Shown: positions 46,032-59,275 of the stretch, piece by piece
How the letters are laid out: each line of letters starts with the position of its first letter
Numbering within the stretch: the first letter of the stretch is position 1
Source of the DNA: [Synechococcus] sp. NIES-970
GTDB taxonomy: Bacteria; Cyanobacteriota; Cyanobacteriia; Cyanobacteriales; MRBY01
Assembly: GCA_002356215.1 (NCBI GenBank)
Contig: AP017960.1
Span: 1-64,000 of the forward strand
Length of the DNA: 64,000 bases
Direction: 5' to 3'
Made by a program: the position numbers and the translations under genes
The notes under the pieces: model-generated
What the model was told of the DNA's origin: nothing
The model's input: the letters and a program-made list of their open reading frames with translations, nothing else
Databases searched by the model: none

Positions 46032-46058
46032 AAACCGGTCGCGTAGGCCGGTTTTTTT
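46032..46058 (+). terminator. Terminator of the NCS2 permease gene
   Basis: AAACCGG (46032-46038) pairs with CCGGTTT (46048-46054) and runs into a T tract (46052-46058). It lies 31 bases after the stop, so it is the expected intrinsic terminator. Confidence 0.8.
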
Positions 46059-46677: not shown

Positions 46678-48108
46678 ATGCTGGAAAGTCTTTTGAAATT
46701 CAGATTAAATCAATTCTTAATCCTAGCTGTTGTTAGTTTAGTGCTCATTTCTTGTACTAGTACTCGGACCCGTAATCGTCCTGATCAACTAGATTGCGTG
46801 GATAAACCAGTAGTTGAGCAAGAAAATTCAATTGATCCTTTCGCAGGAGTTACTATCGATATGGGTATTGATGCCAGTGGATCGATGGTTGGCTTTGTTA
46901 ATCGTTCTGGCACTCTATATACTCAAGCAATTGATTCTTTAAGTACACTAATCGGAAATCGTAATATTCCAACAAGATACTGGCGTATTGGTTCATCAGC
47001 ACTTAGAAATACTTTAGGAGCAGAGTCTATTACGCCGGCTCAATTTCTTGAAGCAAAGTTTCCAAAGTTTTATGATTGTAAAATAGCAGATTCCAACTAT
47101 TCTTGTGTTTCTAGTACTCTACATCAAATTTATGAACTGCCTAGTAACAATGAGCCAAGCGCAGACGTTGAAACCCAAGAAATATTAGATACGCTAGATA
47201 GCGAAGAAAAAATAGTCACAATTTTATTAACAGATCTTGAGCCAGATCAATCAGCGATCGCTCAGTTATCGAGTCGGGTTAGCCAGGAGTTACAAAAAAA
47301 TCCTGACTATAAAGCGGTACTCGTAGGTGTACGCAGTGAATTCAATGGCAATGTTTTTTCGGCGGAGACTGGCCAAATCAGTATTGCCAATTATTCAACC
47401 GATACAGCGGAAGTGGCTGAATCAGGGCGACCCTTTTATTTAGTAATGACAGGCCCAGAGATTGCTCTCGATGCAATTATCAACAGCTTTAATAATCTCC
47501 CCCTTGATGTGAGTCGGTCTTTTCGGGTTACTTCTTTTGCTGCTTCCAATACCGAGGTACTCACTCTCGATAAGTCTGCGATATCAGATCCAATCAATGA
47601 ATGTCTTGTTCAACGAGGCAATATTGGTCGCGATCGCCCAGACCGAAACCAAGCAGATCAGTGGTTAATTCTGGGTCAGCGGCGCTGCGGCGAAGAAGCT
47701 AATACGGTCATAGATATCTGGTCTGAAAGCTCAAGTTCCCTAGTAGGTGCGACGATTGCCCCAGAAAAACTCATTTCCTCAAGTCCTCTACTTAAGGCAG
47801 AAGCTGTAGACGTCCAAGGCGATCGCCTCAAAGTTCAGGCCCAAATTATCACTAGTAGCTCAGGTTCTCGTCGGGGTGAAGCAGTCTATTTAACTCTTTC
47901 CCAAAGAGATCTCGATGAAGCAGTCTGGGCAGACTGGAACTCTACCGTCGCGAATCCAGATGGGTCAAAAACACAAAATCTTTTGCTCTTTGTTTATGGG
48001 CTCCGGGAAGCCGTCAAAGGAATGGCACTTCAAAATGTCAGTCTCAATCCTGAAGCACCCCCACCCCCCAATGATGATGCGGTGAAATTTTGTATTGGCA
48101 TTAACTAA
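46678..48108 (+). CDS. vWA-domain lipoprotein, first gene of the tubulin-actin operon
   Basis: A 476-residue protein of no family I can name. The signal peptide ends in lipobox LISC (Cys26), so it should be a lipoprotein in the periplasm or outer membrane. A von Willebrand A domain begins near residue 58. The MIDAS motif is Asp65-Ala-Ser-Gly-Ser69 in MGIDASGSMVGFV, and a second metal-site Asp is in VTILLTDLEPDQS near residue 182. The C-terminal half (about 290-470) is beta-rich without a known motif. It is the first of six co-directional genes. The vWA domain suggests metal-dependent protein-protein contact. Confidence 0.75.
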   Translation: MLESLLKFRLNQFLILAVVSLVLISCTSTRTRNRPDQLDCVDKPVVEQENSIDPFAGVTIDMGIDASGSMVGFVNRSGTLYTQAIDSLSTLIGNRNIPTRYWRIGSSALRNTLGAESITPAQFLEAKFPKFYDCKIADSNYSCVSSTLHQIYELPSNNEPSADVETQEILDTLDSEEKIVTILLTDLEPDQSAIAQLSSRVSQELQKNPDYKAVLVGVRSEFNGNVFSAETGQISIANYSTDTAEVAESGRPFYLVMTGPEIALDAIINSFNNLPLDVSRSFRVTSFAASNTEVLTLDKSAISDPINECLVQRGNIGRDRPDRNQADQWLILGQRRCGEEANTVIDIWSESSSSLVGATIAPEKLISSSPLLKAEAVDVQGDRLKVQAQIITSSSGSRRGEAVYLTLSQRDLDEAVWADWNSTVANPDGSKTQNLLLFVYGLREAVKGMALQNVSLNPEAPPPPNDDAVKFCIGIN

Positions 48109-48148
48109 ATTTTATTTTTTATGTTTTTTACAATGAGGAAACAAGATA

Positions 48149-48658
48149 ATGTCAAAATCATTTAAAAGTTGGTTAGCTTTAATTATTGCAGTGGCGATCG
48201 CTATTCTTTGGAACTTACTCCTCAAATATAATCTTTTTTATGTTCCGATTCTCCCCTTAAGTGCTGGTAATGCAGAGATTGAAGATTGGTTAGCCGAAGT
48301 TTTTTGGTTGAATAATGGTATTAGTCTTGGATTAGGTTTTCTTTTACTAGGATTATGGATTTTTAAAGCCTATAACAAGCAGTTCATTCGTGCCGAATTA
48401 GTTCTTGAAAGACGATTTCAATGGTGGTTTTCAGCTTTTTTACATTTTTTAGCCTGTCTATTGATTTTCTTTAGCACTTCTTATTTTTATGGTTGGTTAG
48501 ATGACAGCCTTTATGCAGAATTTTGGCTTTGGTATTCTGGTTGTCTTTTCTTTGATACACTCTTAATTTTTTGGTTACCTTCAGCCCTAGCTACACCAGG
48601 TTCTTTACGGAATATCCCCCCCCTAGCGATCAAACTTAGAAAACTTTATGGAGGTTAA
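48149..48658 (+). CDS. Four-helix membrane protein of the tubulin-actin operon
   Basis: A 169-residue protein with about four membrane helices: residues 6-35 (WLALIIAVAIAILWNLLL), 60-77 (ISLGLGFLLLGLWIF), 92-118 (WWFSAFLHFLACLLIFF) and 128-150 (WYSGCLFFDTLLIFWLP). The sequence is rich in Trp, Phe and Leu. I recognise no family. It lies 40 bases after the vWA gene and is followed in six bases by the tubulin-like gene, so it is likely the membrane platform of the system. Confidence 0.7.
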   Translation: MSKSFKSWLALIIAVAIAILWNLLLKYNLFYVPILPLSAGNAEIEDWLAEVFWLNNGISLGLGFLLLGLWIFKAYNKQFIRAELVLERRFQWWFSAFLHFLACLLIFFSTSYFYGWLDDSLYAEFWLWYSGCLFFDTLLIFWLPSALATPGSLRNIPPLAIKLRKLYGG

Positions 48659-48664
48659 GTAATC

Positions 48665-50176
48665 ATGCAAAAAATTTATGCGATCGGTGTTGGTGGGAGT
48701 GGTGCTAAATGTATTGAGGCTGTTACTTTTTTGCATGCAATTGGATTTTATGGGGCTAATTGTGAGCTTAATATCCTTTTAATTGATGCAGATCAAAATA
48801 ATGGAAATCTCACCCGCACCCAGCAAAATATTGACAAAACCCTTAAATGCTACAAGCTCTTTCAAAAGCAGTTTTCGCCATTTATGGCCGAAAAAATTCA
48901 GGATTGGGGTGTCTGGAATCCCCTAGAGCAGTCGGTAGGGCGTTCTTTTGAGCAAATGTTAGAACTACGCCTTGATGACCCCCTCCGGAGTGTTTTCGAA
49001 GTGCTCTATGGCCCTAACGAGCGGGGGATGGATTTTGAAGTGGGTTTTCGGGGTCGTCCTCCTGTAGGTTCAGCTATTTTAGGAACTCTGGGTATCGATG
49101 GCAGCTCTCCCTCTCGGCAAACTCCCCTCGAACGTATGCTGAATGATATCCAAAACACAGAAGGAGCAACAGGCACTTTTATTCATCTTTTTGGCAGTAT
49201 TTTTGGTGGTACAGGGGCGTCTGGAGTTCCGAGTTTGGCAAAGTTAATCGGTGATCGCCTGAAGAATGATATGGGCCACAATATCGAGATCAATGCCTCA
49301 ATCTTATTGCCTTACTTTGACTTTGAGAAACCTCCAGAAAAAGAAAAAGTTTTTGCCGAAAAACGCTTCTTTAACCTAAATACCCAAGCAGCTCTTAAGT
49401 TTTTATACGAACAAAGTAAACATGATGCCATCTTTAAAAATATTTACATTATTGGCAACAGTGCTCCTAAAACTTACAGTTCAAAAACAGGAGGCGAAGA
49501 GCAAAAAAATGACGCGCACTTTGTCGAGCTCTATGGGGCTCTCGCTATTAAGGACATCATTAACCACCAGAACGATGAATTGAGTCTGACTTCCAGTAAT
49601 GATACTCAGATACATTATGTCTGTCGCAGACACCAAGATAATCTGATTTGGACTGACTTCCCAGAAGGAGATGCCCTGAAAAAAAGTTTAGGCGGTGCTG
49701 TACGAGCGGCCTATATGTGGGCCCACAATTTTTCTCTCGAACTGCAGGCAGCAAGTAACATCGGGCCAACACAGTTTGCCATCGGTGCTCCCTGGTTCCC
49801 TCGACTCTTTAATACCAAGAGCGCCAAGAAAAAGGCCCGTGGCGAATCGCTACCGAGTATTACTGATGATGACCAAATCCAATGTATCCGCGCTTTTGAT
49901 CTCTGGGCTGATAGCTTCCTCATCTGGGCCAAGCAACTTTCTAAGTCCCATCACCGGGGCGATCGCCTGTTTAATCTTGCTCCAATCCAAGAGAAAGCCC
50001 AAGAAAAATCTTACCAAGAAAAACTCAGTCGAGTTGTCATGGATCAGGCTGTCAGCCCAGAGCAAGAGCGTCAAGACTGCATCGACACGATTAAAAATAA
50101 CCTCGCTGACCTAAACAGAGTTCAAGGAGATGGAGTTGTTGGTCTCGTCCACACACTCTTTAACGAAGCCTACTAA
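48665..50176 (+). CDS. FtsZ/tubulin-like GTPase (Tubulin_2 type)
   Basis: A 503-residue protein with features of the divergent FtsZ-tubulin families. The N-terminal nucleotide-binding loop is IGVGGSGAKCIEAV (residues 7-20), then LLIDADQNNGN at 38-48, and the tubulin signature-like Gly loop SIFGGTGASGVPSLAKL at 178-194, equivalent to GGGTGSG. The C-terminal about 250 residues are not FtsZ-like. Such proteins are linked to vWA proteins in a predicted membrane-remodelling system described for other bacteria and archaea. ATG 48665 is preceded by GGAGG. It is encoded immediately before the actin-like ATPase gene. Confidence 0.8.
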   Translation: MQKIYAIGVGGSGAKCIEAVTFLHAIGFYGANCELNILLIDADQNNGNLTRTQQNIDKTLKCYKLFQKQFSPFMAEKIQDWGVWNPLEQSVGRSFEQMLELRLDDPLRSVFEVLYGPNERGMDFEVGFRGRPPVGSAILGTLGIDGSSPSRQTPLERMLNDIQNTEGATGTFIHLFGSIFGGTGASGVPSLAKLIGDRLKNDMGHNIEINASILLPYFDFEKPPEKEKVFAEKRFFNLNTQAALKFLYEQSKHDAIFKNIYIIGNSAPKTYSSKTGGEEQKNDAHFVELYGALAIKDIINHQNDELSLTSSNDTQIHYVCRRHQDNLIWTDFPEGDALKKSLGGAVRAAYMWAHNFSLELQAASNIGPTQFAIGAPWFPRLFNTKSAKKKARGESLPSITDDDQIQCIRAFDLWADSFLIWAKQLSKSHHRGDRLFNLAPIQEKAQEKSYQEKLSRVVMDQAVSPEQERQDCIDTIKNNLADLNRVQGDGVVGLVHTLFNEAY

Positions 50177-50226
50177 ATTTCTTATTTTTTACGTTCTTCT
50201 TCTAAATCATCCACTTCTGATTAATC

Positions 50227-53200
50227 ATGAGCCATCCTTGCCTCCCTGCCCTCCTCGCTGACCGCACTTCTATTCCTGCCGTCGAGCCAGGTAAATTTAA
50301 TTCTGTAAACCTCAGTCAGATCAAAAGCCTAGCCGATGATCTAGATTTTGAGGCCAGCGATGATGCAGACATTCACTCCATTCCCAGCCCCTGGGCCCGT
50401 CCCTTGCAGTTTATGGCGGCGATCGCTGACCGACGTTACAAAGCTCGGGGAGGTTTAATTCGCCAGTATCGGGGGTTTTTAGCCGCTCTAGCCCTTTCAG
50501 ATTATCTGCATTTATCGATCAAAGCAGAAGCGATCGATCTCAGCAAAGAAGAATTACGAAGAAGTAAGCTCGGCAAGGCACTCATCACCCTTAAACCAGA
50601 TACGAATCAGAGCGTTTTAAGTCAGACTTTTGGCCAGGCCGACCCTTGGCTCAAGACTTATATTTTCTATTGTGGTGAGCATGTATTGGGAATGACCAAT
50701 CCCGCAACCCTCATCACCCCAGCCCCCCACATCAGTAATACCCTAAAACAACAAATTCCCTGGATTCAAGACCATCGTTTTACCGATCCCAGTCCATCTC
50801 TGAGTAGCCGCGAACGCTATGTGGTGATCGAATGGCTCAAAACTCTTTGGGGTCAGCTGAACAGAGCTTGGGATAACGCCAATCGAGAACTTATTGGTTC
50901 CCTGACTCAAGAGCTGCAAGATTTTGCTGATGATCTCGGACAAGGTCAGGTATCGCCCATAGAAGTCAATCAAAACGAAGATGGCTTCGGCATAGCGTTA
51001 GAGCCAGATCCCCTCAAATATCTCGCACCAATGAAGCTCGCAGAAGAAGGCAGTGCACCCCGTTCTAATGTCCAGGTTATGACGTCATTAGGTTTCGCAC
51101 CAGAGCGGCCAATTTATCTCATCGATCAAAAACATCTCCCTGCCAAATTGGGCCATCGCTCTGGTGAAATTATTGTTTACGGCACAATTTCCCTGCAGAT
51201 CTTTAATCCGGAAATCCACGGGCATGATGGTGCTTACTTCCTAAAACCTGAAGACTTTTTCCTTGATGAGCTGTTTTATATCGAAGGGGACAAATTACTC
51301 CCAGGAACTTGGATTGCCGAAAAGATCAGCCTCTATGACAGTATTGACGCACAGACAAATCGGGTACGGGGTGCGAAAACAATCCTCTTACCCCTCAATC
51401 CTCTCCTCAAACAGTATTTTGCCAGTCCTGACCTGGAAAAAGTTACCAAGCTAACTGTGGTTGGTCAGGGAGGCGATCGCAAGGTCAGAGTATCCCTGAG
51501 GCTACCTTTATCAGGCTACGGGAGTAAACCTGTATTTTATGAAATTGCCAAGGAATTCCCGCTTAAACCAGAGAACAGTTTACCGGGGGCGATCCCAGTG
51601 ATTGGGATGTGGCCAAATGTCCCTGTGGGCAGTTGGAAACAATTTTTTGTCTTTACGGATGCTTCTGAAAATGTTGAAACCGCTTTTTCCCTAGTACCGC
51701 CAACGGTAGGTGCCAGCTCCTTCTTTCGGAATATGGGGCAACAGGCTCGCTATCAATATTGGGAATGTCCTCAACATCCGAATATTCTCGAAGCAGTGAA
51801 TACAGATGGTCATCCCCTCGGCGTATTGCCCCTCAAAATCCCCAAAGTTCAATTAAGAGAAACAAGGGAATGGACGGTGGGTGTCGATTTTGGAACTTCC
51901 TTTACAAATCTTGCTGTGCGTCGTGGTAATAGTGCCCCCCAATGGCTCGATCTCCAGACACAGATGCTTTCAATTACTGAAGCGCCCCTATCCATCAGAG
52001 ATCGAGCTTACCGAGAAATGTTTGTGCCAGAAACCTTTATTAAAGATGAGCAGGAACGCTTACCGATGGCAACTTTGCTCACTACGATGGGATGGACAGA
52101 ATCTTCAAATACTGCCATACCCGAACCACTTAAAGAAGCTCGGATTTTTGTACCCCGTTTAGATAGATTTGACTTTAATGTTGAACATATTAAAAGCAAT
52201 ATCAAATGGGACCAAATTCGTTTTCAAGATCCCTTCCTACGTCATCTCCAACGCCTTGTTGCAGCACAGGCAGCCCTTGAAGGCGTAAAAAGCATTACTT
52301 GGGTCGTCTCCTACCCCTCTGCTTTCTCTCCCCACGAAGAACAGATGTATTTTGCTACATGGAAGCGAACATTGCGAGATACAGCAGAGATTACCTATCA
52401 GCGTCATTTATATGATGAAAAAATTCATCGCACCGAAAGTATTGCCTTTGCGGAATATTATCGAAATGTCTGTGCTGGGGTGGAAGATAATCTGCTCAAT
52501 ACCATCTGTGTCGATATCGGTGGCGGAACTTCAGATATTGCTGTTTTTCGGGAGAGCAAGGTTATTTACCAAACTTCTGTTTCCTATGCAGGTCGAGATA
52601 TTTATCACCGACTGCTGAAGCTCAACCTGAATGCTATTGGTGATGTATTTGGACTCTCTGATCGAGATGCTAAGAGCTTACAAGAAGTTCTGAGTGGCAG
52701 TAATTTCAACTCCGCCCTCGACAACTACCTGCGGGGTAATGGCCGCAAGATTCTTGAAGGAGGCTATGCAGTCAACGCTGGCAAAAAGAGAAATAAAGAA
52801 TTCCGTACTCTACTAGTTTTTGCCATTGGTGGTTTACACCATTATCTAGGTTTAGTACAGAAATATTTATCCCAGAACAAGGATGATTGTACTGCTACTA
52901 TTTTTATTGGTGGTAACGGCTCTCGTTTCTTAGACTGGCTAACGCCGACTGGTGAATACAATAGCAACTCTGAAATCAACAAAGTTCTATTGGGTGTTAT
53001 GGAAAAAGCAGCCGAACTGCAGCCTAATCCAAAAGTCGATCCAATTCAGCGAACTAAGCATCCAAAATCTGAGGTCTGTGAAGGTTTAATTATTCCTCAA
53101 GAAAAAATTCTTAAGCGTGTCGAACAAAGTAATCCTCTAGTCGGTGAAATTTGTGAAGTCAATGGTCAAGAATTTGCGGCTTTAGAAGTTTTTAATTTTC

Positions 53201-53508
53201 CTGAAGAATGGGAAAACATCACTAGCTTTAATATAACTAGCACTCAAGAGTTAGAGCGATATATTCGCAACTTCAATCAAATTATCACTCAAGAAAAAAT
53301 TGGTAGTATCCAAGCTTTACCCGGTGTCCAAATTAGAGGCAATGAGGCTATACCCAATGATCTAAAGCGAGTATTACAAGATATTGTTAGAGATACTTGC
53401 CAGAAAAAGTTAGGTAAAAAAGAAGATTTTGAACTTGAATCTACTTTCCTCCTGCAGTTGCGCTGTTTTATGGATATCCTAGCTAGTCGCTGGGCTCGTA
53501 GTAATTGA
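50227..53508 (+). CDS. 1093-residue protein with C-terminal actin/Hsp70-like ATPase domain
   Basis: A large protein whose N-terminal about 540 residues match nothing I know. The C-terminal half carries an actin/Hsp70-fold ATPase: phosphate-1 motif TVGVDFGTSFTNLAV at about residues 550-564, phosphate-2 motif CVDIGGGTSDIAVF near 760, and adenosine motif ATIFIGGNGSRFLDWL near 890. There is no signal peptide or membrane helix, so it should be cytoplasmic. It follows the tubulin-like gene by 50 bases. The Asp of phosphate 1 and the Gly-rich loops are intact, so ATP binding is likely. Its N-terminal part may bind the client or membrane partner. Confidence 0.78.
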   Translation: MSHPCLPALLADRTSIPAVEPGKFNSVNLSQIKSLADDLDFEASDDADIHSIPSPWARPLQFMAAIADRRYKARGGLIRQYRGFLAALALSDYLHLSIKAEAIDLSKEELRRSKLGKALITLKPDTNQSVLSQTFGQADPWLKTYIFYCGEHVLGMTNPATLITPAPHISNTLKQQIPWIQDHRFTDPSPSLSSRERYVVIEWLKTLWGQLNRAWDNANRELIGSLTQELQDFADDLGQGQVSPIEVNQNEDGFGIALEPDPLKYLAPMKLAEEGSAPRSNVQVMTSLGFAPERPIYLIDQKHLPAKLGHRSGEIIVYGTISLQIFNPEIHGHDGAYFLKPEDFFLDELFYIEGDKLLPGTWIAEKISLYDSIDAQTNRVRGAKTILLPLNPLLKQYFASPDLEKVTKLTVVGQGGDRKVRVSLRLPLSGYGSKPVFYEIAKEFPLKPENSLPGAIPVIGMWPNVPVGSWKQFFVFTDASENVETAFSLVPPTVGASSFFRNMGQQARYQYWECPQHPNILEAVNTDGHPLGVLPLKIPKVQLRETREWTVGVDFGTSFTNLAVRRGNSAPQWLDLQTQMLSITEAPLSIRDRAYREMFVPETFIKDEQERLPMATLLTTMGWTESSNTAIPEPLKEARIFVPRLDRFDFNVEHIKSNIKWDQIRFQDPFLRHLQRLVAAQAALEGVKSITWVVSYPSAFSPHEEQMYFATWKRTLRDTAEITYQRHLYDEKIHRTESIAFAEYYRNVCAGVEDNLLNTICVDIGGGTSDIAVFRESKVIYQTSVSYAGRDIYHRLLKLNLNAIGDVFGLSDRDAKSLQEVLSGSNFNSALDNYLRGNGRKILEGGYAVNAGKKRNKEFRTLLVFAIGGLHHYLGLVQKYLSQNKDDCTATIFIGGNGSRFLDWLTPTGEYNSNSEINKVLLGVMEKAAELQPNPKVDPIQRTKHPKSEVCEGLIIPQEKILKRVEQSNPLVGEICEVNGQEFAALEVFNFPEEWENITSFNITSTQELERYIRNFNQIITQEKIGSIQALPGVQIRGNEAIPNDLKRVLQDIVRDTCQKKLGKKEDFELESTFLLQLRCFMDILASRWARSN

Positions 53509-53519
53509 GGAAAATAAAA

Positions 53520-54488
53520 ATGATAAATCTAAATTTCATGTTTACTTTATTGCTTTTATTCAGCACTATTTCATACAGAATAAATCTTCAATCTCCAGTC
53601 GATGTGACAGATAATTTAAACGGGAGTACACTTCAAATTACTCTAGCAAATGCGACACCAAATGGGAGTACACCTCAAACTAATCCATCAGATACGACAA
53701 CGAAATCAAATGGAAGTACACCTCAAACTACTTCTAGAATCTCAAGAATCCGGAGTTTTTTTACTTGGATTATCATTTTAATGCTCTTAAGCAGTGCTTT
53801 TGTTGGATATAGAAAATTGAAATTTTGGATTAATGAAGAAAATCAGAAAAAATATGAAGCTCGTAAACGTTTATCCCAAACAATAGATGAGTTAAGAAGA
53901 AGTATTCAAAACTTAAATTACCAGCAACAAAATTTAGAGCAAAAAGTTAAATTATTAGAAAAACAAATTTCTTCTGATAGTTCTCGAAATACTTTTTTGT
54001 TATCAGAATTTCAAGAAAGACAGCAGCATCTAGATAAAGATAAAATACAATATTCAAGCTCTTCTGATTATGTCGAACCTACTCCAATTCAGCCATCTGA
54101 TCCATATCAAGAAGCAATTACAGCGTTCAATATTCAAGATAGAGCTTTTTTTCAGCAGAATACTTACACTTATTATCTGGCTTTAGACGAAAGTACAATT
54201 GATGGCGAGACTAGTGCTGGAGCTAAAAGAATTGTCCGGTTTGTTGACGTTGATAGTGCGAGAGATGCTCTATGTCTTGCGATAATGGTCAACTCTGAAT
54301 ATCTTATATTTCCCAATTTTTTTAGCCCATACTATGACAATTTAGATCAATGGCTATCTGACAATCAAGATATTTTTCAATGTCATGGTCAAGGAATAAA
54401 AGTTCAACTTTGTCAGCCTGGCAAAGTTCAATATAGTCAGACTCAGACATGGGATTTAACAGAGTCTATAATTCTAAATTTAGAATGA
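53520..54488 (+). CDS. Membrane/coiled-coil protein with the shared C-terminal domain
   Basis: A 322-residue protein from ATG 53520; a GAGG lies just before, and a TTG at 53505 overlapping the upstream gene is possible. Order: an N-terminal hydrophobic segment (NFMFTLLLLFSTISYRI), a low-complexity Asn/Thr-rich stretch with three NGST(P/L)Q repeats, a membrane helix (FFTWIIILMLLSSAFVGY), a coiled coil at about 105-160, then a C-terminal domain from about 195 with AFNIQDRAFF, then FPNFFSPYYDNL and IFQCHGQG. The same domain occurs twice in the next gene product. The function is unknown. Confidence 0.7.
   Translation: MINLNFMFTLLLLFSTISYRINLQSPVDVTDNLNGSTLQITLANATPNGSTPQTNPSDTTTKSNGSTPQTTSRISRIRSFFTWIIILMLLSSAFVGYRKLKFWINEENQKKYEARKRLSQTIDELRRSIQNLNYQQQNLEQKVKLLEKQISSDSSRNTFLLSEFQERQQHLDKDKIQYSSSSDYVEPTPIQPSDPYQEAITAFNIQDRAFFQQNTYTYYLALDESTIDGETSAGAKRIVRFVDVDSARDALCLAIMVNSEYLIFPNFFSPYYDNLDQWLSDNQDIFQCHGQGIKVQLCQPGKVQYSQTQTWDLTESIILNLE
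53618..53732 (+). repeat. Three imperfect 24-bp direct repeats inside a gene
   Basis: Copies of AAATGGGAGTACACCTCAAA start at 53618, 53660 and 53708 and encode NGSTLQI, NGSTPQT and NGSTPQT. They form the Asn/Thr-rich spacer before the membrane helix of the coiled-coil protein. Copy number of such in-frame repeats could vary between strains. Confidence 0.7.
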
Positions 54489-54587
54489 TTTAATAAAGAA
54501 TCAAAAATTATAGAGACAATAAAAATGTAAATAGTGAATTGGAACTAAGTAAAAAAATAAATCTTTAATGATATAGAGCATCTATTT

Positions 54588-55844
54588 ATGATTCGAAGAA
54601 ATACAGCCGGATTGCTCGCCATTTTTTTAGGCTCTTTCGGCATTCATAAATTCTATACAGGAGAAATATTTCTGGGTGTTATTTATCTACTCCTTTTTTG
54701 GACTTATGTTCCAGGAATTATTGGAATTATTGAAGGCATCTATTACCTATCCCTAAGCGAAAAAGAATTTAGAGATAAATTCAAAAATCCTCCTGTACAA
54801 ACTAAACTATTTACATATGTAAGTGATGATGACAGAGATGTCACAATAGAAACAGATAGTAGTGAAAAAATTTATTTCCTAGAAAACTCGATTCAAAGAC
54901 TAGAAAAAGAATTACAAACACTAAAATCTAAAAATCAAGAACTCAGCTCAATTATTATCAATCAGCAAGATTCGATTGCTGGTATTCGAGAGGCCCAAAC
55001 TAAAATTTTAAGCCAGACCCTAAGCCTAGGGCCTAATTCGATACAATCACCAACGAATACCCACAAGATTTTCAATCGTTCCATAGCAGATTATTCGGGT
55101 CGTGCAGTGGCAACAGCATTTGAAACTCAGGATCGAGCTTTCTTCATCGAACGAGGTATGGTCTTACTGTCTCCCATCCCAAAAGAAGACAGAGACCTCA
55201 ACTCAAAAGCTGAATTGACTCAAGTCTTGAGCCCCAACAAAGCGGCGTTTATTTGTGTCCAGATTGGTCAAAATTATTTTGCTGTACCTAACTTTATATC
55301 GCCCCATTATAAAGCTTTAAAATCTCACTACTCTGGCACAAAAATTTTTAGAACCTATGGCTCTGGAGATAATCTAACTCTCAAAAAACCAGCCCAGCTA
55401 GAACGTTTGGATAGTAATGCTTGGAAGATTAAAACAGCAGGGCTGTATTTTAGTGAATTTGCTGAAATTGAACTGTTGATTGAAGCCTTTAACGAACAAA
55501 ATCAAGACTTTTTTGCCGAAGCCTCTCCCGTTACCCTGAATCAAGGTGTCCTCGCTGGCGAGCTCAAAACAGATGAGGCGATTCAGTTTCGACAGGTTGA
55601 CGTCCACCGTGACGCAGAATTCATGGTGGTTAAAGTTGAAAATTCATATTTCCTCGTGCCTGACTTTATTTCCCCTTATTATGCTCAGTTAAACTGGCTG
55701 GAGCTTGGGGAAGATATTTTTCAATGCGATGGTATTGGGGAAAGCGTTAAGCTTATCCAGCCTGCTGAGGTCACCGCAGAACAGGATGGTCTGTGGACCT
55801 TAACAAAAGCCGGCAGTTGCCGCCTGATCACTGCCGAATCATAG
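54588..55844 (+). CDS. TM2-domain/coiled-coil protein with two copies of the shared domain
   Basis: A 418-residue protein. Residues 1-65 form a TM2 domain with two helices: RNTAGLLAIFLGSFGIHKFY, then GVIYLLLFWTYVPGIIGIIE. A coiled coil follows at about 83-128 (IYFLENSIQRLEKELQTLKS). Two copies of the shared domain lie at about 165-280 and 288-415; each has AFxxQ(D/N)xxFF and a later VP(N/D)FISP(H/Y)Y motif, with GSGD or GIGE loops between. It is last in the operon and convergent with the beta-lactamase-like gene, overlapping it by six bases. The TM2 plus coiled coil suggest a membrane anchor that positions the shared domain. Confidence 0.75.
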   Translation: MIRRNTAGLLAIFLGSFGIHKFYTGEIFLGVIYLLLFWTYVPGIIGIIEGIYYLSLSEKEFRDKFKNPPVQTKLFTYVSDDDRDVTIETDSSEKIYFLENSIQRLEKELQTLKSKNQELSSIIINQQDSIAGIREAQTKILSQTLSLGPNSIQSPTNTHKIFNRSIADYSGRAVATAFETQDRAFFIERGMVLLSPIPKEDRDLNSKAELTQVLSPNKAAFICVQIGQNYFAVPNFISPHYKALKSHYSGTKIFRTYGSGDNLTLKKPAQLERLDSNAWKIKTAGLYFSEFAEIELLIEAFNEQNQDFFAEASPVTLNQGVLAGELKTDEAIQFRQVDVHRDAEFMVVKVENSYFLVPDFISPYYAQLNWLELGEDIFQCDGIGESVKLIQPAEVTAEQDGLWTLTKAGSCRLITAES

Positions 55845-57080
55845 GCCGCCCTGGGCTGCATCCGGAGCCAAATTGATTTGTTCGTGGATGAGTTTGGCGA
55901 TCGCTGGAAAGAAAGTCTCATTTTCGGAGTAAGCGGAATGGTCGGCAAAAACACTGAGTATGAAACGCTGCCGTTCGTCAGGACTAACAATATAAGCTAC
56001 CTCATGACGACCTTGGCTCATCCAACCTGCTTTGGAAAAGATACGCATTTCTGGTGGTAAACCTTCCCCAAAAAAGTTCTGTACCGGATTGAAATAATCT
56101 TTCGGGCTCTGCCAATCTTGGGTTAAATCCCGCTGTAAATATGCCAGCATTTGCTGACTCGCTTCGGGGTCGATCGCCTGACCTTGGGCAATTTCTGTCA
56201 TGAGCCGCGCCGCTTGATAAGCACTGAGGCGATTGCGGAGGGGTCGATCGGGATTCCTCGAATTTTCACGCATCTGCAGATCGAAGCCGGCCGGTTCAAA
56301 AATCTCCACATCAGTGATCGGATAGGTCTTTTGGGTAATATCCAAGCCTTCATAGCCAGCCGTCTGGAAAAACACATTTAGTTGTTCCCGCTGAAAACGC
56401 CAAGTCGCAAAATCAGCCGGGGTTGCCGCCGTCAAAGATTGGGTTGTGCGCGTCATCGCATCAATCAAGCGACTAGTGGCATTGTTGTCAGACTGCTGCA
56501 CCATCAAAGCCAGATCTTCGGTATGGACTTCGGGATTGAGTAAGCCTTGATCAAACTGACCATAGAGAGCTACCAGCCAAAATAATTTTGGGACACTCGC
56601 CGGATAGTGAAAAGTATCGGACCGGTAGGAGGCGATCGCCTGACGATTGAGATCTACCAAAACCACAGACATCCTCTCTGGCGGTAGATTTTCTCTTTGA
56701 GCCAAGGCCCGGATTTGGGCAACAATATTTTGTAACGTCGGATCTTCTGGAAAATTCATCAGAGGATCTACCACATTGTAGGGCGCTCGCCAAATAGATT
56801 CTGCCTCTGTCGGCGTTGCTAGAGGAGTACCTGTTTGGTCTGCAGGAATATTTTCTGTAAAGGAAAAAGAAGAATCTGTCTCTGTTTCAGCCGTTGTTCT
56901 TATTTCCGCTTGATCCGATGCCGACTTAAATGGATTGAGCGAAGCATAGATTAACCACACACCACCGCCGACAATCGCCAAGGCGATCGCCCCAACTAAA
57001 AGCACAAACTGCTGAGGACTCATCATAACCGCCCCATTGTGACGACGGCGTCGAGGAGATTTCAAAGGAGATTGATTCAA
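55839..57080 (-). CDS. Membrane-anchored class A beta-lactamase-like serine hydrolase
   Basis: A 413-residue protein with a basic cytoplasmic tail, one membrane helix at about residues 24-47 and a periplasmic class A beta-lactamase fold. The active-site motifs are Ser162-Val-Pro-Lys165 in YPASVPKLFWLV, Ser-Asp-Asn at 197-199 in VQQSDNNATS, and Lys350-Ala-Gly in FSKAGWMSQG in place of KTG. Such proteins in cyanobacteria may act on peptidoglycan rather than confer resistance. The start is a TTG at 57080; an ATG at 57026 would remove the basic tail. It is convergent with the tubulin-actin operon. Confidence 0.85.
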   Translation of the reverse strand: MNQSPLKSPRRRRHNGAVMMSPQQFVLLVGAIALAIVGGGVWLIYASLNPFKSASDQAEIRTTAETETDSSFSFTENIPADQTGTPLATPTEAESIWRAPYNVVDPLMNFPEDPTLQNIVAQIRALAQRENLPPERMSVVLVDLNRQAIASYRSDTFHYPASVPKLFWLVALYGQFDQGLLNPEVHTEDLALMVQQSDNNATSRLIDAMTRTTQSLTAATPADFATWRFQREQLNVFFQTAGYEGLDITQKTYPITDVEIFEPAGFDLQMRENSRNPDRPLRNRLSAYQAARLMTEIAQGQAIDPEASQQMLAYLQRDLTQDWQSPKDYFNPVQNFFGEGLPPEMRIFSKAGWMSQGRHEVAYIVSPDERQRFILSVFADHSAYSENETFFPAIAKLIHEQINLAPDAAQGGL

Positions 57081-57136
57081 AATAAAGACCTAGACGATGG
57101 ACAAAAAGTGAAATACAGCCACAACAATAGGCAACC

Positions 57137-58954
57137 CTAACGACGCCACAGCACTTCAAGAGTGTTGTAATCTGCAATCTTCCAAGTACCATCGGCTCGC
57201 TGCAGGTTATAACGCACTAAGCGCTGGTCATAACCACTAGCATTGCGGTCAATGTTGCCGTTAGCAGTGTACAAAGTCCGTTGTTCTGTCACTACCACAT
57301 CGGCGATCGCCTGCTGACTATCCACCACATTCAGATTACGCACTTCCTCAACCACCTGATTCGCAAAAGCATAGTGAGACCCGTTACTTTTCAGCCACTC
57401 CATTGAACTCTGTTGCCCATCATTACGGCGAATATTGTCACTAAACGCTTTTCCCGTTAAAATTTGCGTGCCACAACTACGGTTATAGGGATATTCAAAC
57501 AACTCCTGTTTACAGTCGAGCCAATTCACCACTAAATCTGCTGCTTGATTTTCAGAGAGCGCTGGAGTTTTTGGTGACGGTGACGCTCTCTGGGCCTCCT
57601 GAATCCGAAAACTCAAACCCGTTGCCTGAGCTAATTGATTCACAAAACCTTGGGCACTGTCCCTAGAAGTGAAACTTGCAATTTGGATCACGCCATCTTT
57701 ACGCAGAAAAGCGTCTCCACAATAATTACTTTTAATCCGGTCTAGGGCAGCCCGATCGCCAATCACCCGGTACCAAGTATTCGCGTTACTCGAAAGATCG
57801 CCACAACTTTCTTGAAAGCTCAAAGAGACTTCAATGGGCGTATTGGACTGTTTCCGGGAAACACTAATTGGGCTTTCAGTAGACTCACTTTGGGGAGAAA
57901 CAAAGCTAAGATTACCTGAACGGTTGAGCATTTGCATTCCCAAAACAACGCCCCCCAGGAGAAAAACACCAACAACACTCCCCGTGAGTACCGCTTTTTG
58001 CCAATCGGCCATCCCTGTGGCTACGGGTATTCTTTGATTCTTTCCGACCGTAATTGTTGCCTGGTGAGAGGTCTGGGGCTGAGGTATTAACGGAACCACT
58101 ACTGGGGGCAGCATTGGTGCAACCATGGGTGTTTGTAGAGCGGCAACCATGGCCGAAACATCTTGAAACCGCTCCTGAAGCTGAGGTTGAATCGCTTTTT
58201 CCAGCACTGCAGTGAGATGTTCATCAACTGTGTTCTCTTCCTGAAACCATGGTCGCCAGAGAATCTTACGCGTCTGGGGATCACTTGGTAGTTCTTGGGG
58301 CAATTTCCCAGTCAATAAAAAAATCGCCGTCAATCCAAGACTATACAAATCGGTAGCCAATACCGGACGACCAATACCTTGCTCCGGCGCCATAAAGCCT
58401 GGCGTACCAATCACAATCGATTTACTCTGGGCAACACGACTATTGGTAGCATTCATCGTTTCTTTCACCGCCCCAAAATCAATTAAGACCGGTTGGCGAT
58501 CGCTTCGACGCAGAATAATATTTTCCGGCTTAATATCCCGATGAACGATGCCCTGATCATGAATAAATTTCAGTACAGGTAAAATTCCTAAGAGTAATTC
58601 TTTCACTGCCTTGCTAGACCAAGGGCCTTGGTGCAGAACTATATCGGCAAGCGTTTCTCCTTCAACCCACTCTTGAATTAAATAAAATTTTCCTGCTTCA
58701 TCTAGATAGGCATAGAGACAAGGAATCTGGGGATGATTTTCACCTAATTTTTCTAACAAAACTGCTTCTCTTTCAAAGCGATCTTGCACCAACTGATAAG
58801 TGACAGGGTCATTCACGATGGGCTTGAGTCGCTTAATCACACAGCGACGTTTCGAAGGCATATGCAGATCTTCTGCCAGAAATGTATCACCAAACCCCCC
58901 CTGTCCCAAGCCTCGCAAAATCCGGTAGCGACCTTCAAGAAGTTCTTTTTTCAT
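57137..58954 (-). CDS. Ser/Thr kinase with SPOR-like and ARC6/IMS-like domains
   Basis: A 605-residue kinase from ATG 58954; a TTG at 58969 adds five residues. The kinase domain is at about 8-265: Gly-rich loop GLGQGGFGDTF, VIKRLKP (Lys), catalytic loop IVHRDIKPENI, LIDFGAVKET and GFMAPEQGIG. A membrane helix follows at about 315-335 (SVVGVFLLGGVVLGMQML), then a SPOR-like segment near 415-460 (VIQIASFTSRDSAQGFVNQL), and a C-terminal ARC6/IMS-like domain (about 470-605, AADLVVNWLDCKQELFEYPY). All kinase catalytic residues are present. The periplasmic parts probably sense envelope or division status. Confidence 0.88.
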   Translation of the reverse strand: MKKELLEGRYRILRGLGQGGFGDTFLAEDLHMPSKRRCVIKRLKPIVNDPVTYQLVQDRFEREAVLLEKLGENHPQIPCLYAYLDEAGKFYLIQEWVEGETLADIVLHQGPWSSKAVKELLLGILPVLKFIHDQGIVHRDIKPENIILRRSDRQPVLIDFGAVKETMNATNSRVAQSKSIVIGTPGFMAPEQGIGRPVLATDLYSLGLTAIFLLTGKLPQELPSDPQTRKILWRPWFQEENTVDEHLTAVLEKAIQPQLQERFQDVSAMVAALQTPMVAPMLPPVVVPLIPQPQTSHQATITVGKNQRIPVATGMADWQKAVLTGSVVGVFLLGGVVLGMQMLNRSGNLSFVSPQSESTESPISVSRKQSNTPIEVSLSFQESCGDLSSNANTWYRVIGDRAALDRIKSNYCGDAFLRKDGVIQIASFTSRDSAQGFVNQLAQATGLSFRIQEAQRASPSPKTPALSENQAADLVVNWLDCKQELFEYPYNRSCGTQILTGKAFSDNIRRNDGQQSSMEWLKSNGSHYAFANQVVEEVRNLNVVDSQQAIADVVVTEQRTLYTANGNIDRNASGYDQRLVRYNLQRADGTWKIADYNTLEVLWRR

Positions 58955-59275
58955 TGCCCATGGTGTCAAATTTCAACTTCCATTTTACTGGAACTTTCAG
59001 GAGAAAAATATCACTGAGAACACGAATTACCTCTCTTAGTTACACTGCCCCTCAGAAGGAAATTTTTAACTGTTTGGGGCATACCTAAGATTTCATTCAT
59101 CGTGGCAAGATTTATGTTATGTTTTTTTAGTGGTTCACCCATCTCAAAACCACCATTTGCACCAAGACAAGTTAAGTATCGAGCCATATTCTCCGTATCG
59201 GAGTTGGCATTTAATCACTCGAGTCGACAGGATTCGTGTGTCTAAAACCAGCTTCAAACTAGGAGAGGTGACTAA
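58955..59275. other. Divergent promoter region between the kinase gene and a small gene
   Basis: No gene is visible. It must hold the promoters for the kinase (minus) and the 153-residue protein (plus). The AGGAGAG ribosome site at 59261-59267 belongs to the latter. I see no strong palindromes. Confidence 0.4.

Follow-up and report, generated by a model that had tools for sequence, protein, structure and literature searches.

A conserved accessory module pairs predicted tubulin-like and actin-like proteins with membrane partners in cyanobacteria and other phyla

FtsZ and FtsA are the textbook tubulin-actin pair, in which a tubulin-fold and an actin-fold protein cooperate at the membrane. To our knowledge, dedicated pairs of this kind are rare in bacteria. 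Here we consider a six-gene module of [Synechococcus] sp. NIES-970 in which genes for both predicted folds stand next to each other. It lies on the + strand at 46678-55844 of a 64,000-nucleotide stretch of DNA (the window). Makarova and Koonin (2010, PMC2875224) argued for a membrane-remodelling role of FtsZl1, a tubulin-superfamily protein encoded with a vWA protein. As described there, FtsZl1 has an FtsZ-like domain, then a long coiled coil and finally a helical C-terminal part. The passages on its partners name GTPases, kinases, OmpA-like proteins and membrane proteins, and these passages mention no actin-like partner (PMC2875224). Tubulin_2 proteins are scattered and divergent according to the relevant part of a 2023 superfamily study. 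Kaur et al. (2020, PMC7159879) described GAP1-N2 GTPase-centric conflict systems, which are membrane-linked and have TRAFAC GTPases with GAP1. In the sections on their themes, tubulin plus vWA and HSP70 fall into separate themes, and the tubulin theme is placed in Firmicutes and Actinobacteria (PMC7159879). Searches of open-licence full texts, judged by title, abstract or passage, found no paper that describes the module.

The initial annotation read the locus as six same-strand genes with small gaps. The open reading frames (ORFs) were confirmed at its coordinates:

46678..48108, + strand: gene 1, vWA-domain lipoprotein, 476 aa, predicted extracytoplasmic (lipobox-like pattern, MIDAS, conserved position)
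48149..48658, + strand: gene 2, small polytopic membrane protein, 169 aa, 3-4 transmembrane (TM) helices (hydropathy, conserved position)
48665..50176, + strand: gene 3, tubulin-superfamily GTPase-fold protein, 503 aa, in a clade apart from FtsZl1 (AlphaFold2, FtsZ structural match)
50227..53508, + strand: gene 4, actin/Hsp70-fold ATPase-like protein, 1093 aa (AlphaFold2, structural matches)
53505..54488, + strand: gene 5, signal/TM and coiled-coil protein, 327 aa, with one shared C-terminal domain (ORF, profile)
54588..55844, + strand: gene 6, TM2 and coiled-coil protein, 418 aa, with two shared domains (Pfam TM2, iterated search)

The distances from gene 1 to gene 6 are +40, +6, +50, -4 and +99 bases. 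From this spacing we infer a single transcript. Gene 5, should its TTG start be correct, begins 4 bases before the actin-like gene ends; this start is uncertain, and an in-frame Met stands five codons downstream.

The module travels as a unit over large evolutionary distances. A scan of species genomes gave 489 pattern matches and 449 relatives, and the best 80 of the 449 were fetched. Locus counts refer to 91 non-redundant loci and use iterated profiles on called ORFs, with loci that are too short set aside for each partner. Nine duplicate loci and L065 (a tblastn match with no tubulin-like ORF called) were removed before the order and neighbour counts. L020 lies outside the iterated-profile, neighbour-family, adaptor-domain, gene-order and paralogue counts. 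The actin-like gene is downstream of the tubulin-like gene, on the same strand and within 3 ORFs, in 85/89 loci (72/76 cyanobacterial, 13/13 other). The gene for the small membrane protein is upstream on the same strand within 3 ORFs in 81/88 (66/73 cyanobacterial, 15/15 other), and the vWA gene is upstream within 4 ORFs in 63/76 (53/65 and 10/11). A gene with the domain shared by genes 5 and 6, which we call the adaptor domain, follows within five genes in 67/72 loci (58/63 and 9/9). Two of the four loci that miss the actin-like gene have inserted genes (L084, L060) and one is a solitary copy (L047). The fourth, L042, belongs to a genome that has an actin-like gene on another contig (L140) beside two adaptor genes. 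Since the same order is kept in other phyla, the idea that the linkage is a cyanobacterial coincidence was ruled out.

The non-cyanobacterial records are labelled Acidobacteria, Poribacteria, Aminicenantes, Nitrospirae, KSB1, Chloroflexaceae and Selenomonadaceae. They are mostly metagenome-assembled genomes (MAGs), so single taxon labels may be wrong. One 'Euryarchaeota' MAG groups among the cyanobacteria in the tree and its label is doubtful, and a short Chloroflexaceae contig that stands outside the tree may be mis-binned. The initial annotation had spoken of a machine in cyanobacteria. The module stands, and its limitation to cyanobacteria does not. Four IMG/VR contigs, two of them near-identical, carry tubulin-like relatives at 24-29% identity followed directly by an actin-like gene. 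Upstream, three of them have a match to the vWA protein and three a match to the small membrane protein; several of these matches are weak, at 11 to 40 bits. No adaptor domain was detected on the four. The distances among tubulin-like and among actin-like proteins are correlated over 62 loci (r 0.965, against at most 0.253 in 999 permutations). It must be noted that shared descent of the loci alone would be expected to yield such a correlation equally well.

The tubulin-like gene was found by protein search in 21/244 genomes of the cyanobacterial phylum, and a profile search finds the same 21. The actin-like profile finds 23/244, with all 21 among them (hypergeometric 2e-29, ignoring relatedness). 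The two extra genomes are G056, a 22.5-bit motif match in a 353-aa frame, and G038, a fragmented genome that is 73% complete. Neither gene was found by profile searches in the same-genus genomes G058 and G211. The nearest named relatives sit on plasmids of Picosynechococcus PCC 73109, 8807 and 7003, where the tubulin-like protein is 77-78% identical and annotated 'hypothetical protein'. This makes the contig of the window look plasmid-like; the window is the first part of this 138-kb contig in a 3.12 Mb genome of Picosynechococcus type. A farther relative on a mobilizable Gloeothece plasmid is annotated 'tubulin-like', so the likeness had already been noticed by annotation. In the single-contig genomes G014 and G187 the module is on the main contig. 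L142 (G087:C23) is a decayed module, in which 62 aa of a vWA protein lie close to an adaptor-domain match that is broken by a stop. With 21/244 genomes, plasmid carriage and this remnant, the module is accessory.

Gene 3 is predicted to have the FtsZ/tubulin nucleotide-binding domain fold. Its AlphaFold2 model, made from a 76-row alignment (75 tubulin-like ORFs of 470-540 aa plus the window), has a pLDDT of 85.3 and a pTM of 0.91. The best structural match is FtsZ (Z 16.8, rmsd 3.4, 200 residues, model residues 1-319), and Foldseek matches tubulin at E 1.3e-4 with probability 1.00 and a TM-score of 0.26 by query length. Two nucleotide loops are conserved in the alignment:

48686..48709, + strand: T1-type nucleotide loop GVGGSGAK, residues 8-15
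49205..49225, + strand: T4 signature GGTGASG, residues 181-187

G10, G11 and G13 of the T1 loop are invariant in the 76 rows, G8 is found in 58, and the full T1 pattern in 53/76. The T4 loop reads FGGTGASG in the window and FGGTGA[SA]G in 76/76 rows. The fold and the GGTGASG loop noted from the sequence are thus both borne out. By eye, no T7 motif was recognised in the protein. There is a conserved W329-x-D331-x-P333 after helix 286-302. Searched against PDB sequences, the tubulin-like profile matched only S100 proteins, at E 0.57 or worse.

Gene 4 had been noted for actin/Hsp70 motifs in a 1093-residue protein, and it is predicted to have the actin/Hsp70 ATPase fold. The AlphaFold2 model (pLDDT 86.6, pTM 0.79) comes from a 64-row alignment, consisting of 63 actin-like ORFs of 1030-1150 aa and the window; a smaller alignment held 17 of 21 listed actin-like ORFs and the window. 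DnaK (Z 17.0, rmsd 4.5, 326 aligned), MreB (Z 16.9, rmsd 3.6, 281 aligned) and FtsA (Z 16.7, rmsd 3.2, 254 aligned) are tied as matches, mostly across residues of about 547-960. Foldseek gives the same fold with probability 1.00. The parts of the protein are as follows:

50227..51861, + strand: N-terminal region, residues 1-545, upstream of the part (546-967) aligned by most structural rows
51862..53127, + strand: actin/Hsp70 core, residues ~546-967 (structural alignment)
51880..51909, + strand: phosphate-1 motif GVDFGTSFTN, residues 552-561 (G552, D554, G556, T560 in 64/64)
52435..52437, + strand: candidate catalytic Glu737 (E in 64/64)
52513..52536, + strand: phosphate-2 motif DIGGGTSD, residues 763-770 (D763, G765, D770 in 64/64; G767 in 54)
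52909..52926, + strand: adenosine motif GGNGSR, residues 895-900 (G895, G896 in 64/64; S899 in 48)

We take Glu737 as the putative equivalent of the catalytic-side Glu of Hsp70 and MreB. Ten positions of the site (G552, D554, G556, T560, E737, D763, G765, D770, G895 and G896) are identical in 64/64 rows. The full motifs match fewer rows because their looser positions vary (phosphate 1 in 61/64, phosphate 2 in 51/64, adenosine in 55/64). Neither of the two outcomes that would have refuted the initial annotation was found: the genes stay together in relatives, and both proteins have their predicted folds and conserved nucleotide-site residues. The Pfam matches of gene 4 are sub-threshold and mainly cover the phosphate-2 stretch of FtsA, MreB and their relatives; the scores are below the curated cut-offs for FtsA (22.5 of 31.8), MreB (19.2 of 27) and EutJ (22.2 of 182). 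The idea that the protein is SrfB-like was dropped, as no SrfB model was among the Pfam matches of 18 members at E<=0.01. Five loci (L077, L031, L061, L081, L090) have a second, shorter actin-like paralogue downstream. These paralogues are without the first 320-340 or so profile positions, so the N-terminal region appears separable.

It is worth considering whether gene 3 is simply FtsZl1. The initial annotation had linked the locus with a published system of a divergent FtsZ-like family and a vWA protein. The kinship and the vWA partner hold, but membership of FtsZl1 does not, as gene 3 falls in a separate clade and has different partners. Against Pfam Tubulin_2 (PF13809) the protein scores 22.1 bits, below the cut-off of 27, and PF13809 matches 20/22 of its relatives at E<=0.01. 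Across the genomes PF13809 is present in 54/244, with 49 above the cut-off. Among its matches 57 pieces reach 85-382 bits, and most of these belong to open frames about 850-1170 aa long. We took these as FtsZl1 by its description, the published FtsZl1 accessions not being among the sequences compared. The module family matches PF13809 in 15/21 genomes. Single pieces score 19-35 bits, or up to 39 when neighbouring pieces are added, and 8 of the 15 matched members are above the cut-off. Since Pfam does reach some members, the sub-threshold score of the window is a weak argument alone. The other lines agree. The module tubulin-like profile has no match in any of the 244 genomes that has only long Tubulin_2 proteins. 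Aligned with hhalign, the module family and presumed FtsZl1 are remote homologues (probability 96.5, 17% identity). A quick tree splits 76 module rows from 10 presumed cyanobacterial FtsZl1 rows with an SH-aLRT of 100 and a very long branch, and seven genomes carry both. Nor does gene 3 have the long coiled coil and helical C-terminal domain, since at 503 aa it has about 160 residues past the FtsZ-like part. Scores, lengths, the remote profile match and the separate clade together rule out that it is simply FtsZl1.

The predicted outer end of the module is the vWA protein, which we assign from motifs. It was described as a lipoprotein with a vWA metal ion-dependent adhesion site (MIDAS), and this is sound. 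The lipobox-like LISC is at residues 23-26 (Cys26), and the MIDAS motif lies here:

46870..46884, + strand: MIDAS motif DASGS, residues 65-69 (motif pattern)

D65 and S69 are invariant across the 18 rows of the vWA alignment. Family members of at least 350 aa have the MIDAS pattern in 78/78 cases and the lipobox-like pattern in 63/78; these motif counts and the helix counts below include duplicate loci. Neither this protein nor the small membrane protein of the window has a Pfam match at E<=1. Gene 2 had been called a four-helix membrane protein. The membrane part of that description is right, and the helix number depends on the hydropathy cut-off: the window protein has 3 at 1.6, while at 1.4 exactly 4 are found in 58/90 family members and 2 to 7 in the others.

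Genes 5 and 6 do share a C-terminal domain, as first noted; gene 5 has a single copy, gene 6 has two:

54105..54485, + strand: shared adaptor domain, copy 1, gene 5 (iterated search)
54600..54740, + strand: TM2 domain, residues 5-51 of gene 6 (Pfam 51.6 bits, cut-off 27.9)
55101..55454, + strand: shared adaptor domain, copy 2, gene 6 (iterated search)
55467..55829, + strand: shared adaptor domain, copy 3, gene 6 (iterated search)

The TM2 call of the initial annotation is clear, and in PHROGs this region matches families without an assigned function. The adaptor domain has about 120 residues. An iterated search, duplicate loci included, found the domain in 80 loci, with 220 copies spread over 191 genes. 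Most of them lie two to five genes past the tubulin-like gene, and in 156/191 genes the domain ends within 15 residues of the C-terminus. It is largely confined to the module, as 19 of the 23/244 genomes that have it also have the tubulin-like gene. The four others are G058 and G211 (a chromosomal copy), G087 (the remnant) and the fragmented G038; two tubulin-like genomes, G042 and G035, have no match. The genome of the window also has a chromosomal signal/TM protein ending in the domain (L135:1465-3000, contig 1), and the same chromosomal copy is present in G058 and G211, both of which are without the module. In L077 and L031, the latter cut by the end of the locus, the domain is fused to the actin-like paralogue, here missing the first ~320-330 positions, and this fusion suggests a physical linkage. 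Judging from signal and TM patterns the domain would be cytoplasmic. Its identity with a known domain was rejected, since at E<=0.01 each of four Pfam families matched a single one of the 62 copies, and the best match in the PDB has an E of 0.22.

A further family pair is found near 18/91 loci, 9 cyanobacterial and 9 other. These genes are ZorA/ZorB-like, that is MotA/MotB-like. The long family is a TM/coiled-coil protein of 327-752 aa, and the small family is beside it in 16/18. Of four pairs scanned in PADLOC the long members score 20-47 bits against ZorA and the small members 35-60 bits against ZorB. The ZorA scores are partly coiled coil, and in L054 the match spans a MotA-like stretch. 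Pfam OmpA exceeds its cut-off for the small family of L108 and stays under it for that of L054, and the long member in L121 has no ZorA match in NCBIfam. Ten neighbour proteins each were covered by the Pfam, PADLOC, NCBIfam and IMG/VR-neighbour scans. From these scores we call the pair ZorAB/MotAB-like, not Zorya. Directly past the pair in L114 (18584-20362) there is an ion-channel domain protein (PF07885, 42.2 bits).

We tentatively favour reading the module as a conserved, accessory, envelope-anchored switch of two nucleoside triphosphatases (NTPases), most likely with a conflict or stress role at the cell envelope, a role of which we are less sure. One can imagine the following scenario. 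The vWA lipoprotein would use its metal site to sense or grip something beyond the inner membrane. The small membrane protein would relay this signal across the membrane to a cytoplasmic tubulin-like GTPase. The adaptor proteins, with their TM or TM2 segment, coiled coil and shared domain, would tie the actin/Hsp70-like ATPase to the membrane, and this ATPase may act as a second nucleotide switch on the tubulin-like protein, much as FtsA ties FtsZ to the membrane. The assembled complex would act on the envelope, and in some lineages it may be coupled to an ion-driven ZorAB/MotAB-like stator. With less confidence, its purpose may lie in a conflict or stress response at the envelope, for example defence against phages, and not in housekeeping division. 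We favour conflict or stress because of the patchiness, the plasmids, the decay, the stator-like partners and, for two divergent IMG/VR copies, the neighbours. The latter are UvrD-type helicase and DUF4357 genes near L154 and an N6/N4 DNA methylase gene near L155. What we say of filaments, of force and of the task of the module in the cell is inferred. The initial annotation went further with 'two motors' and 'secretion or stress', phrases that have no direct support; the data back two NTPase folds encoded with membrane partners.

Several points weigh against this switch. There is no evident effector, which weakens the conflict or stress reading: neither a nuclease, a toxin nor another clear effector is among the six genes in Pfam and NCBIfam. 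In PADLOC (2023 library) the six have only weak matches of at most 17.2 bits, the highest for the coiled-coil protein, and neither NCBIfam nor PADLOC has anything firm on them. The NCBIfam ZorA/ZorB scores of the stator-like pair are far below the cut-offs (e.g. 26.9 against 190). Such genes are not among the six and were not found in the genome of the window with one query, which is a weak test. Whole-chain Foldseek TM-scores are low, at most 0.22 for the actin-like model and, among the rows listed, at most 0.32 by query length for the tubulin-like model. The FtsZ alignment of the latter ends at about residue 340-349 among the rows listed, so filament contacts are unsupported. The vWA gene is divergent in 36/53 of the cyanobacterial loci that have it, in contrast with collinear in 10/10 others, and may therefore be separately regulated. 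The membrane topology of the module proteins is derived from hydropathy and a pattern.

A stronger version of the two-NTPase switch can be stated, and we consider it doubtful though worth stating. It would be an obligate filament or switch pair of tubulin and actin families besides FtsZ-FtsA, old, found under eight phylum-level labels and plasmid-borne in some hosts. A metal-dependent vWA sensor would connect to it through the inner membrane, an ion-driven stator would power it in some lineages, and it would serve as an immune or stress engine of the envelope.

The alternative that survives best, although we think it unlikely, is a membrane-remodelling or cytoskeletal system in the style of FtsZl1. 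Tubulin-like filaments would shape or invaginate the inner membrane with the actin-like protein as a tether. The tubulin fold, an actin fold near FtsA and MreB and the membrane partners all suit this, and the role was proposed for the related FtsZl1 family, in the portion of the paper that argues it (Makarova and Koonin 2010, PMC2875224). However, one would not readily expect a shape or division system to be patchy and in part carried on plasmids, the FtsZ alignment covers only the first two thirds of the tubulin-like model, and FtsZl1 is a different clade.

Chaperone-like quality control is improbable. Here an actin/Hsp70-fold chaperone would work with a vWA co-chaperone, as in conflict systems whose parts, in the themes outlined by Kaur et al. 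(2020, PMC7159879), include vWA, tubulin and HSP70 proteins. The DnaK chain does rank first against the actin-like model, but it is tied with MreB and FtsA, which fit equally well. Pfam and NCBIfam searches of the six proteins gave no match at E<=1 to a GTPase, MoxR, GrpE or DnaJ family.

We give about as little credit to an envelope-spanning adhesion or motility machine, with the vWA lipoprotein as a metal-dependent adhesin and the cytoskeletal pair as track or clutch. It would resemble the Agl-Glt gliding system, in which a MotAB-like stator is coupled to an actin. The MIDAS lipoprotein and the stator-like genes of 18/91 loci would fit such a machine. Most loci, the window included, have no stator-like genes found nearby, though, and the hosts (Microcystis, a Prochlorococcus-labelled MAG, Trichodesmium and Picosynechococcus) fit no motility pattern known to us. 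Plasmid maintenance, in which the two proteins would segregate a replicon like TubZ or ParM, agrees with the Picosynechococcus and Gloeothece plasmids and the plasmid-like contig of the window, but it is very improbable given the main-contig copies in G014 and G187 and the conserved lipoprotein and membrane partners.

Around the module there is little else to report. A stem lies between the upstream permease gene and the module:

46032..46054, + strand: terminator-like stem, 9 pairs with a T-rich tail, a consensus match only

Over the window, promoter-like sites (19, against 21.1 in shuffles) and terminator-like sites (11, against 9.0) are not above chance, and Rfam and tRNA scans of the whole window were empty. 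Past the module, the - strand at 55839-58969 codes for a beta-lactamase-like serine hydrolase and for a Ser/Thr kinase that carries an ARC6-like IMS domain. On the PCC 73109 plasmid the module is likewise followed by genes for a serine hydrolase and for a protein with an IMS domain. In the Chamaesiphon locus L076 relatives of the hydrolase and of the IMS-domain kinase adjoin the vWA gene on its own strand. An Acidobacteria MAG (L105:4824-9956) has a 1710-aa RHS-repeat protein inserted between the small membrane protein and tubulin-like genes.

The module holds a second predicted tubulin-actin pair, from families without a curated model above cut-off in the window, and it keeps this pair with the same membrane partners across distant phyla. 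It is a testable system in laboratory cyanobacteria. It also gives studies of tubulin origins another branch of the FtsZ/tubulin superfamily, offers an unnamed adaptor domain, and suggests that cytoskeletal switches may be linked with ZorAB-like motors.

The comparison with known systems can be put briefly. The module shares with FtsZl1 a tubulin-superfamily protein that stands with a vWA protein and membrane proteins, and OmpA-like proteins occur in some FtsZl1 genomes. It differs in that presumed FtsZl1 has about 850-1170 aa and scores 85-382 bits, while the module family has about 500 aa, scores 19-39 bits and keeps other partners. It resembles Zorya in the 18/91 loci with the TM/coiled-coil family nearby, 16 of them with the small OmpA-like family, but the scores are far below the NCBIfam cut-offs and the pair is absent from the operon of the window. 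With FtsZ-FtsA it would have in common a tubulin-fold and an actin-fold protein at the membrane; neither module protein reaches the curated FtsZ or FtsA cut-off, and the actin-like protein has an extra N-terminal region of about 545 residues. The GTPase core of the GAP1-N2 systems is not matched, as neither Pfam nor NCBIfam gave a GTPase family for any of the six at E<=1, with no dedicated GAP1 model used. These conflict systems are still the closest concept to the module. They too have tubulin-domain proteins with vWA proteins, or HSP70, in a membrane-linked setting, whereas the module has its tubulin-like and actin/Hsp70-like genes adjoining.

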